Positions 92 to 8,569 of a stretch of 8,879 nt of DNA are shown in pieces (within the stretch, counting starts at the first letter, position 1; every line of letters starts with the position of its first letter). Under the pieces are notes generated by a model. The model searched no databases. It was not told the DNA's origin and saw nothing but the letters and a program-made list of their open reading frames with translations. The DNA comes from Candidatus Altimarinota bacterium. GTDB taxonomy: Bacteria > Patescibacteriota > Gracilibacteria > GCA-2401425 > JAJOLG01. Where the stretch lies: assembly GCA_021129445.1 (NCBI GenBank), contig JAJOLG010000056.1, forward strand, positions 1-8,879, given 5' to 3'. Both the position numbers and the translations under genes were made by a program.

Positions 92-133
92 AAAATAAAA
101 AATTTTCTAATTATAGCAAGAATTTTTTATTTT
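92..133. terminator. AT-only inverted repeat at the trmD 3' end
   Basis: The arms at 92-104 and 121-133 are perfect 13-bp inverted complements around a 16-nt loop. The right arm overlaps the trmD stop codon. The stem has no G-C pair, so it would be weak, but its place at the end of a three-gene operon and the T-runs on both strands fit a bidirectional terminator. In a genome this AT-rich such repeats also arise by chance. Confidence 0.35.
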
Positions 134-783
134 AAATTATTCTTTTTCCACTCCTCAATTTTTTTATGATGCCCAGAAAATAAAACTTCTGGAACACTTA
201 ATCACTCAAAAACCTCAGGTTTTGTGTAAAGCGGATATTCTTTTTTTCAATCAAAAGCATCAGAAAAACTTTCTTCCAAATGCGATTTTTCTTTTCAAAT
301 AACGCCTGGTAAAATCCTTGAAATTCAATCAATCAAAATCATTGCAGGAATTTCTCAACCTGTCAAAACATATTCTCAAATACAAATTTCCTCATCAACA
401 AGTGCATCAATAACCCTTTGATCAATTCATTCGTATCTTCAAGCCAAAATTATAAATTCAGTATCTTCATAATTCGCAAAATTTTCCAATTTTTTCTGTG
501 TCAAAACTTCTCATCTCGGACTCGGGTAAATCACATATTGCCTTTTGTACTGCGACTTTTCCTTGATAAATTTCACACAATCAAAAAATGGCTGACAAGT
601 CATAACCATCCCATGACCTCATCAATAAGGAGTATCATCAACTTTTTTATGCTTATCTTTCGAAAAATCTCTCAAATTAAAAATCTCGATTTCTATCAAA
701 TTTTTTTCTTGTGCTTTTCAAAGAATACTTTCATTTAAATAAGAAAAAGCCTCTGGAAAAATTGTAATTATTGAAAATTTCAT
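127..783 (-). CDS. trmD: tRNA (guanine-37-N1)-methyltransferase TrmD
   Basis: TrmD transfers a methyl group from S-adenosylmethionine to G37 of tRNAs, next to the anticodon, preventing +1 frameshifting. Read with TGA = Gly, the 218-aa product opens MKFSIITIFPEAF, has the family VDDTPYGGGHGMVM block, and carries the SPOUT trefoil-knot motifs GRYEGID (115-121) and GEYVLTGGE (136-144), then SRILPG (155-160, with Arg156 at the usual catalytic Arg) and YPLYTKPEVFEG. About 12 glycines are TGA and 5 are GGN. Two oddities: Glu171 sits where the general-base Asp (D169 in E. coli and Haemophilus) is expected, and the protein stops soon after the SGHHKKIEEW helix, so it lacks the last few dozen residues of the 255-aa E. 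coli protein. It is the last gene of its operon, 7 nt after tmk. The ATG is the start the family predicts; no Shine-Dalgarno is visible. Confidence 0.95.
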
Positions 784-790
784 TTTTATT

Positions 791-1447
791 TTATTTTTTT
801 AAAATCTCCCCTAAAATCTCCAAATTTATCTCCTCAATTCATCTCATTTCTCAATCTTTCTCACAATCAATTTTTATCCATCACAATTTTTCCACAACCT
901 CCATTGCAGATTTATGTGCATTTATCAAATGATTTTTATCCTCCTCGTGCAAATCCATTTTTTTTCATCATTTTAAATATTCTCTATCCTCTTTTTTTAA
1001 AACCAATTTTTGACTCATTTCCGGAGAAACATTTAAAAAAATTGTTTTATCCGATTTTGGAATTTTAAAAATATTGTATTCTAAATCCTCTGCCCATTCC
1101 AAAAATTCATCTCTTTCAGCTTTATCGGAAATTTTTCATGCTTGATGAATCAAATTTGCAGACACATACCTATTTGAAATCACAAAATCGTAATCTTTCC
1201 ATGTTTTTTTCAATTCAGAAAAGTGATCAAACCTGTCAATTGCATAAAAAATACTTGCCTGCTTTGCAGAAACATCGCTTCAATACCCTCAATTTAAATA
1301 TTTTTCAACTGCGAAACACGATTTTTCTCAATATCTTGGATAATCCAAAATTAAAACTTTTTTTCACATCTCTTTCAATTTTTTCTCCAAAATTGCAACT
1401 TGTGTTCATTTTCACGAGCCGTCAATTCAGTCAATTACGATAAACAT
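791..1447 (-). CDS. tmk: Thymidylate kinase (dTMP kinase)
   Basis: Tmk phosphorylates dTMP to dTDP with ATP, a required step in dTTP synthesis. With TGA = Gly the 218-aa product begins MFIVIDGIDGSGKGTQ, a Walker A P-loop at about 7-16 in which three glycines are TGA. Then come LDYPRYGEK (34-42), the substrate-side QASIFYAIDRFD stretch (63-74), and ISNRYVSANLIHQAGK (90-105), which corresponds to the usual DRY motif but has Asn92 in place of Asp. The Lys/Arg-rich KKEDREYLKGGKKMD segment (151-165) fits the LID. Length is normal for the family. It starts 2 nt after the stop of the 312-aa gene and ends 7 nt before trmD, so all three are surely cotranscribed. The ATG directly precedes the P-loop strand; there is no Shine-Dalgarno. 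Confidence 0.94.
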
Positions 1448-1449
1448 AT

Positions 1450-6592: not shown

Positions 6593-6602
6593 ATTTTTTA
6601 GT

Positions 6603-6659
6603 CTAAATTATTCATAAAAAATCTGTAATAACTATATTGTAAATTCATTTATTAAACAT
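6603..6659 (-). CDS. Possible 18-aa leader ORF ahead of the VWA gene
   Basis: ATG at 6659 opens an 18-codon frame (one or two Gly from TGA depending on code use; MFNKGIYNIVIT then DFLGII) that ends in TAG, 10 nt before the VWA start codon. It is preceded by AAGGAA at about 9 nt, the only Shine-Dalgarno-like stretch seen before any start in the window. A second, 10-codon ORF (6678-6710, MTIAKENFFE) lies just before it. Neither has a recognisable product. They may be leader peptides or chance frames. Confidence 0.2.
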
Positions 6660-6708
6660 AAAATAGTTCCTTATTTTTTACTCAAAAAAATTTTCTTTTG
6701 CTATCGTC

Positions 6709-6740
6709 ATAATTTTAAAATTTATTTTATAAAAAATTAT
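6709..6740. terminator. AT-only inverted repeat overlapping the glmS stop
   Basis: ATAATTTT (6709-6716) and AAAATTAT (6733-6740) are perfect 8-bp arms around a 16-nt AT loop, overlapping the glmS TAA at 6737-6739. Position fits a weak terminator between glmS and the VWA gene, but the stem has no G-C pair. Confidence 0.25.
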
Positions 6741-8569
6741 TTTACAGTCACACTTTTGGCCAAATTTCTCGGTTTATCGATATCTTTTCAAAGCAAATCC
6801 GCAATCTCGTAAGAAAGCAATTGTCAAACAATTGTTGTTAAAAATGGATAAAAATCCTCAGAAATTTCAGGAATTTTAATTGTAAAATCCGCTCAAAAAT
6901 CTTCAATTTCATCAGAATCAGAAATCAACAAAACTTTTCATTTTCTCGCTTTTATTTCCTGCATCGCAGAAATATTTTGATTTAAAAACGAATCATTTGG
7001 TGCAAAAATTACAGAAATAAAATCCTCATCAATAAGTGCCAAAGGTCAATGTTTAAGCTCACCCGCTGGATATGCCTCCGAGTGCAAATACGAAATTTCT
7101 TTTAATTTTAACGAGCTTTCGTAGGCAATTGGAAGTTGATAATGCCTTCACAAAAAGAAAAAATTTTGATATTTAAAAATTTTTTTTGAAATATTTTTAA
7201 TTTTTTCAAAATCTCATAAAATTTTTTCCAAAATATTTGGAATTTTTTTCAAATCAGAAATTTTTTCCAAAAATTCTTTGTGTGATAAATTTTTTTCAGA
7301 ATTTTTATTTTTTCAAAAATAAAGTGCAAGTAAAAAAATTATTCAACATTGGGCAGTAAAAGCCTTTGTCGAAGCTACTCAAACTTCTGTTCAAGCCCTT
7401 AAAAACATTCAAGTATCTGTCATTCTCGAAATTGTCGAACCTACCACATTTACAATTCAAAAAGTATTTCATCACCTTTCTTTTACAAGTTTTAAGGCTT
7501 CAATTGTGTCCGCAGTTTCTCACGATTGAGAAATAAAAATAAAAAGTCTATCTTTTGAAACATTAAAATTTTTAAAAATAAATTCACTCGCAACTTCAAC
7601 TTTTACATCCATTCAAGCAAAATTTTCAAGCCAGTAAGCCCCCAAAAGTCAAGCATGATACGAAGTTCAACAAGCCACAAAAGTAATTTTTTTAATTGAC
7701 AAATGCTCTAATTCTTGCAAAGCATTTGCAACTAATTTATTTTCTTCCCAGTCAATCCTTCACCAATAAAGCCTTCTCAAAATTTCCGGCTGTTCAAAAA
7801 TTTCTTTCAACATGAAATGCTTAAAATCTCATTTTTCCGCAACAGTTAAATCAATATCAATTTTTTCAAAAGGCTTTTGAGTTAATTTTCATTCAGATTT
7901 TATGATAAATTCATCTCATTTTACAAAAACCAAATCTCAATCTTCCAAATAAATCACATTTTCAATCACCCCTCAAAGCGCTCAAATATCAGAAGAAAAG
8001 TAAAATTCTCATTTTTGCTCTCAAAAAACCAAAGGTGATCAATATTTTACTCAAACAATATCTCACGGAAAATCTTTATGCATCACCAAAAGCGCAAAAG
8101 CTCACTCCAATTTTGGTAAAACTTTTTCAACTGTTATAAATAAATCTCAATCAAAATTTTCTTCAAGAAGCTTCGCAATAACTTCTGTATCGGTTTCTCC
8201 ATAAAATTTATATCATTTTTCTACTAAATCTTTTTTTAATTTAGAAAAATTTTCAATAATTCAATTGTGAACAATTGTAAATTTTCATTTTGAATCTGTG
8301 TGAGGATGACAATTTTCAAGCGCAACTCATCAATGCGTCGCCCATCTCGTATGCGAAATTCAAAAATTAAAATCTCATTTTTCATTCTCAATTTCTGATG
8401 CTAAATTTGAAATTTTTCATTTTGCTTTAACAATTGAAAAATCTCATTTTTCATTTCAAACAGCAATTCAAGCCGAATCATAACCACGATATTCAAGCTT
8501 TCTCAATCAATTTAACAAAATATTTTGAGCATTTTTTTTCACTCATTTGTATCCGAAAATTCAGCACAT
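6737..8569 (-). CDS. glmS: Glutamine--fructose-6-phosphate aminotransferase (isomerizing)
   Basis: GlmS makes glucosamine-6-phosphate from fructose-6-phosphate and glutamine, the entry to UDP-GlcNAc and peptidoglycan synthesis. The 610-aa product (TGA = Gly) is full length. N-terminal glutaminase domain: MCGIFGYKG with nucleophile Cys2 (Gly3 is TGA), [18 protein letters not shown] (73-81), HNGIIEN (101-107), [15 protein letters not shown] and the SSDIGAL loop. Two isomerase (SIS) domains follow: CGTSYHAG (300-307), SQSGETADT (347-355), [36 protein letters not shown] (about 474-493, Glu491) and [17 protein letters not shown] (498-514, His507), ending [13 protein letters not shown] with the conserved Lys605 near the C-terminus. 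The ATG is fixed by Cys2. It follows tRNA-Gln by 22 nt, too short a gap for a glmS ribozyme, so control is probably from the tRNA promoter. Confidence 0.97.

Follow-up and report, generated by a model that had tools for sequence, protein, structure and literature searches.

Genes of the window

The window, which is the whole 8,879-nucleotide stretch of DNA analysed here, is contig 35 of a 673-kb genome in 77 contigs (GC 25–26%). If TGA is read as glycine, it holds eight complete genes and one tRNA:

127–783, minus strand: trmD, tRNA (guanine37-N1)-methyltransferase; 218 amino acids; TGA at 12 of 17 glycine codons; TIGR00088, 271 bits against a cut-off of 195.
791–1447, minus strand: tmk-like thymidylate kinase; 218 amino acids; TGA at 13 of 16 glycine codons, including the P-loop; PF02223, 62 bits against a cut-off of 27, with NCBIfam dTMP kinase matches below cut-off.
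1450–2388, minus strand: function-unassigned protein; 312 amino acids; 23 TGA codons; N-terminal hydrophobic stretch; frame intact only when TGA is sense; no match in Pfam or NCBIfam.
2448–2918, plus strand: ruvC, crossover junction endodeoxyribonuclease; 156 amino acids; GTG start; TGA at 9 of 12 glycine codons; TIGR00228, 112 bits against a cut-off of 100.65.
2922–4124, minus strand: putative secreted protein with a peptidoglycan-binding domain (PF01471 at residues 242–281); 400 amino acids; 36 TGA codons.
4227–5453, minus strand: putative lipoprotein with the lipobox FSGC; 408 amino acids; TGA at 41 of 41 glycine codons, no GGN; no Pfam or NCBIfam family match.
5519–6592, minus strand: BatA/BatB-like von Willebrand factor A (VWA) protein; 357 amino acids; 17 TGA codons; PF00092, 70 bits; top NCBIfam models BatA/BatB, below cut-off.
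6737–8569, minus strand: glmS, glutamine–fructose-6-phosphate transaminase; 610 amino acids; TGA at 47 of 54 glycine codons; TIGR01135, 719 bits against a cut-off of 418.
8592–8666, minus strand: tRNA-Gln(CUG), on the strand of glmS and 22 bases upstream of it; found by ARAGORN and by Rfam RF00005 (52.7 bits).

Searches with the table-25 translations, as the original prediction had proposed, placed TrmD, RuvC and GlmS above the curated NCBIfam cut-offs and the thymidylate kinase, peptidoglycan-binding and VWA domains above those of Pfam; Tmk passed the Pfam cut-off only. The product of 2922–4124 may be secreted, to judge from its N-terminal hydrophobic stretch.

As had been claimed from the sequence, the eight reading frames stay open only when TGA is a sense codon. 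In coordinate order they carry 12, 13, 23, 9, 36, 41, 17 and 47 in-frame TGA codons, 198 altogether, with no in-frame TAA or TAG, and all eight end in TAA. At the off-frame rate of TAA plus TAG (4.0% of codons), the chance that 2,679 codons contain neither is about 10^-47. Under table 11 the longest open reading frame is at most 135 amino acids long and all eight genes are lost, so standard-code annotation does yield nothing but fragments. Every motif in which TGA had been placed at an invariant glycine held when checked codon by codon. Gly3 of GlmS, Gly5 of RuvC and the glycine of TDGENN in the VWA protein are all TGA, as are three of the four glycines in the Tmk P-loop (GIDGSGKGT) and both glycines of GRYEGID in TrmD; in the YGGGHG motif of TrmD, the tyrosine codon is followed by TGA TGA GGT CAT GGG. 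The claim that TGA is the main glycine codon of trmD and ruvC was exact in both of its counts (12 of 17 and 9 of 12).

TGA as glycine genome-wide

The alignment of TGA with glycine extends from the window to the rest of the genome. When TGA codons were aligned to G001, the sole other genome of the same GTDB order in our comparison set (GC 34%), 1,155 of 1,967 faced glycine; the runner-up was alanine (123), tryptophan was outside the eight commonest partners, and GGN codons showed a like pattern. When TGA sites were examined for residues other than glycine, an outcome that would have counted against the original prediction, TGA behaved like GGN against standard-code relatives. Nine standard-code genomes served to define conserved columns of RpoB and RpoC; where TGA falls in such a column, the residue is glycine in 113 of 119 cases. 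In GlmS, TGA occurs in 15 columns in which at least 90% of 16 standard-code sequences share one residue, and that residue is glycine in all 15.

TGA is also the prevailing way of writing glycine. In 617 kb of the genome, glycine is encoded by 11,047 TGA codons versus 2,202 GGN codons (about 83% TGA), and in RpoC by TGA at 100 of 104 codons (96%), a share above that of every other genome tabulated (next 80%). The TGA share of glycine codons is even across contigs (median 86%), and the tetranucleotide composition of the window is typical of the genome (r = 0.9957, rank 22 of 51). Open reading frames defined by TAA/TAG stops end in TAA in 431 cases and in TAG in 61. These data indicate that UGA is an ordinary, indeed the main, glycine codon of this small AT-rich CPR/Patescibacteria genome, and that the genome uses genetic code 25, with in-frame UGA at conserved glycines throughout and UAA and UAG as sole terminators.

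We regard it as extremely improbable that TGA is read as tryptophan (table 4), or through programmed readthrough or as selenocysteine. UGA-to-tryptophan recoding has been reported in other Patescibacteria (PMC13092985), but nothing in this genome supports it: TGA aligns with glycine, with tryptophan absent from its top eight partners, and TGG, as predicted, still faces tryptophan in 104 of 151 aligned codons. Selenocysteine and occasional readthrough are excluded by the 198 TGA codons in eight ordinary genes.

Two contigs differ in code. C21 (L325, 12.6 kb) and C60 (L362, 3.7 kb) use the standard code, with TGA/Gly at 3% and 0%. C21 is a composition outlier with weak tubulin/FtsZ-like and MotA/ExbB-like proteins and has its genes in a head-to-tail row. 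Both contigs are probably foreign DNA in the bin.

Core genes group with a standard-code genome

NCBI genetic code 25, in which UGA is glycine, is described for Absconditabacteria (SR1) and Gracilibacteria (BD1-5) (Campbell 2013; Rinke 2013; as cited in PMC8629427 and PMC13293708). The original prediction took the code of the window to be simply that of these groups. This was not supported: RpoB/RpoC, ribosomal proteins and the GTDB order all separate the genome from that clade and place it next to one with the standard code. That neighbour, G001, has both RF1 and RF2 above curated cut-offs, ends 31 of 202 open reading frames in TGA and has no in-frame TGA in RpoB, RpoC or rplB.

RpoC was surveyed in 145 genomes of the class; TGA was seen in frame only in families f12, f15, f22 and f24 and in the source genome (labelled G000 in the trees); some f22 members had merely 0–3 such codons. 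The GlmS of family f12 forms a pair with a named SR1 record from Lake Pavin (100% support), which identifies the family as SR1/Absconditabacteria, and f15 would correspond to BD1-5/Gracilibacteria. RpoB/RpoC trees joined the source genome to G001, with UFBoot 100 for 20 taxa and a support of 1.000 for 36 taxa, and in both trees f12, f15, f22 and f24 formed one clade elsewhere. Dayhoff-6 recoding left this arrangement in place, with the source genome and G001 again together. Eighteen ribosomal proteins grouped the genome with G001 and f3, with no settled order among the three, and gave f12 plus f15 as a distinct clade. Forcing monophyly with the code-25 clade cost 85 lnL for RpoB/RpoC alone (AU p = 0.024; 0.018 under C10); for ribosomal proteins plus RpoBC, the difference was 143 lnL under LG (AU p = 3.5 × 10^-6) and 123 lnL under C10 (AU p = 3.3 × 10^-8). 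Common ancestry with f12, f15, f22 and f24 to the exclusion of standard-code families was not found. In a per-gene comparison, in which about 370 kb of G001 was covered, code-25 genomes scored better for 25 of 50 genes.

One possible explanation is that UGA became glycine a single time and that the genome branched off early within the known clade and is misplaced by core-gene trees. The shared meaning of UGA, a probably shared meaning of CGG and the grouping of GlmS with SR1 GlmS (both below) would fit such a history. We consider it unlikely, as long-branch or AT attraction would draw this AT-rich long branch to the AT-rich code-25 genomes, yet it joins G001 at 34% GC, and does so under LG, the C10 mixture and Dayhoff-6, with monophyly rejected at AU p values of 3 × 10^-6 to 3 × 10^-8. 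RpoC similarity alone prefers G001 by more than 300 bits (60%, 1,753 bits; best code-25 genome 1,428 bits).

The conflict between code and kinship could also arise if an Absconditabacterium and a G001-like bacterium had been mixed in one chimeric bin, and the two standard-code contigs show that some foreign DNA is probably present. However, RpoC alone carries both signals, having 100 TGA codons and yet grouping with G001, so binning cannot explain the conflict. Similarly, rplB has 26 TGA codons and belongs to a ribosomal operon that clusters among standard-code families, and the contigs, the window among them, are uniform in TGA use and tetranucleotides. A chimera is therefore very unlikely.

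GlmS and probable exchange with the SR1 lineage

Unlike the core genes, the GlmS of the window (6737–8569; compared with L170, L171 and L069) is sister to SR1 GlmS in the tree. The GlmS of standard-code members of the class is of another kind, and no GlmS turned up in the roughly 370 kb of G001 covered. This grouping makes it probable that the SR1 lineage and that of the source genome have exchanged genes, and decoding genes may have been among them. An assignment of the genome to plain Absconditabacteria, its GlmS being nearest to f12 (58%), was dropped after the core-gene trees.

A probable second change at CGG

In Absconditabacteria, CGA and CGG have both changed to tryptophan, and in some Gracilibacteria CGG alone has done so (Shulgina and Eddy 2021, PMC8629427). 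We counted the partners of these codons in contigs C1–C62 (loci L149–L168, L249 and L325–L364; for example, L346, L166, L168, L336 and L339). The 11 CGG codons aligned to G001 faced tryptophan (5), tyrosine (3), phenylalanine (2) and serine (1), and never arginine. CGA faced arginine in 4 of 7 cases and AGA in 482 of 755. In its G73 and A1:U72 the tRNA with anticodon CCG resembles tRNA-Trp, but it retains A20, an arginine identity element.

These data suggest that CGG probably means tryptophan in the source genome, at few sites, and that CGA appears to remain arginine. The genome resembles the known CGA/CGG systems in that its CGG codons face tryptophan or other aromatic residues and in the G73 and A1:U72 of its tRNA(CCG). 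It is unlike Absconditabacteria in the meaning of CGA, the retained A20, the small number of sites and its separate lineage, and tryptophan at both CGA and CGG was not found. Sharing CGG-to-tryptophan with some members of the known clade would be natural under one origin of the code; under two, this second change in common would be either further convergence or a hint of decoding-gene transfer.

Decoding machinery

The original prediction expected a tRNA with anticodon UCA and no prfB. As the second part expected, RF2 was not found in the assembly. No UCA anticodon occurred among the 26 tRNAs found either, and tRNA-Gly(UCA) sequence patterns in the genome were lacking or at chance level (12 matches versus 7 in a reversed control). 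The same assembly also lacks tRNA-Met, tRNA-Glu and other essential tRNAs, and RF1 (prfA) was found neither by HMM nor by BLAST in 617 of the 673 kb. A search for intron-bearing tRNAs with ARAGORN gave only one unconvincing tRNA-Ala. Because tRNA-Met, tRNA-Glu and RF1 must exist and yet are missing, the missing tRNA-Gly(UCA), RF1 and RF2 carry little weight; the completeness of the assembly is lower than the stated 94.8%, and the decoding step is inferred from the codon alignments.

Two other ways of reading UGA were rejected. The third anticodon base of tRNA-Gly(UCC) cannot pair with U, and a tRNA-Trp with a 4-bp anticodon stem does not apply, as these stems have at least 5 bp in both tRNA(CCA) genes. 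The second tRNA(CCA), at L156:1944–2019 (C8), has C1:G72 and A73, which are atypical for tRNA-Trp; the copy on C4 has G73. In G022, a member of f12, ARAGORN reports a "tRNA-SeC" with anticodon UCA at L234:235–308. It has G1C2G3 and U73, and code-25 tRNA-Gly(UCA) is expected to have G1:C72, C2:G71, G3:C70 and U73; it is the tRNA-Gly(UCA) that members of the known code-25 clade should carry.

A probable second origin of UGA as glycine

The genome is like the code-25 Absconditabacteria and Gracilibacteria in reading UGA as glycine, in its UAA and UAG stops, in keeping UGG for tryptophan, in its low GC and in that RF2 was not found. It is unlike them in that its core genes lie outside their clade, beside a standard-code genome, and tRNA-Gly(UCA) was not recovered from its assembly. 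Most likely, UGA-to-glycine arose twice, and the event in this lineage, here represented by one genome, was separate from the Absconditabacteria/Gracilibacteria event. The simplest history has one change at the base of f12, f15, f22 and f24 and another in this lineage after it left G001; a single gain would need reversions of UGA to stop and regain of RF2 in many intervening standard-code families.

We consider it highly likely that the best overall account is such a second change after the split from G001, together with the following decoding steps and driver. After divergence from G001, and independently of the Absconditabacteria/Gracilibacteria event, the lineage would have lost RF2, UGA would be decoded by a tRNA-Gly(UCA) that GlyRS charges, and RF1 would terminate translation at UAA and UAG. 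The driver was probably strong AT pressure, under which UGA stops would have become rare as UAA took their place, and UGA would afterwards have gained over GGN for glycine. CGG probably shifted to tryptophan as well, through the tRNA with anticodon CCG.

As a sub-case of the second event, the code may have been acquired horizontally, with tRNA-Gly(UCA), and perhaps the CCG tRNA, coming from an Absconditabacterium before RF2 was lost. The probable exchange at GlmS and the double change in common, UGA to glycine and CGG to tryptophan, point in this direction. The transfer of one enzyme gene does not demonstrate that of a tRNA, however, and tRNA-Gly(UCA), the gene to compare, was not recovered from the source genome; we consider this route rather unlikely. 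The nearest relative retains RF2 and terminates at UGA. Judging from the sequences, it is likely that the source genome itself records a second bacterial origin of UGA as glycine, accompanied by a parallel shift of CGG to tryptophan, and decoding tRNA genes transferred horizontally from Absconditabacteria may have been part of the route.

Table 25 as such is known and ordinary; the probable independent origin is what is new. A 2026 review restricts UGA-to-glycine to the Gracilibacteria/JAEDAM01 lineage and dates it to the last common ancestor of that lineage (PMC13293708), and a survey that applied Codetta to 42,109 bacterial genomes found it in 53, all of that class (PMC13092985). We found no report of a second origin in the open-licence literature. 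The Patescibacteria family JAKLIH01, in which UGA independently became tryptophan (PMC13092985), is a similar case of an extra recoding event in CPR bacteria outside the classical groups, although the amino acid there is tryptophan rather than glycine and the class differs.

If true, a second origin beside a standard-code sister is a replicate of the code change. Such a replicate lets the order of AT pressure, RF2 loss and arrival of tRNA-Gly(UCA) be asked, and bears on whether glycine is favoured because tRNA-Gly(UCC) differs from UCA by one anticodon base. It would likewise put to the test the idea that gene transfer can hand over a code, and bear on the reason why CGG-to-tryptophan seems to go along. 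For annotation, the standard code shreds such genomes, and assigning table 25 by taxon would miss the source genome. Separately, the RpoC of one f11 genome (G128:C142:4627–8490) contains one in-frame TAG, which may be a sequencing error or something else.
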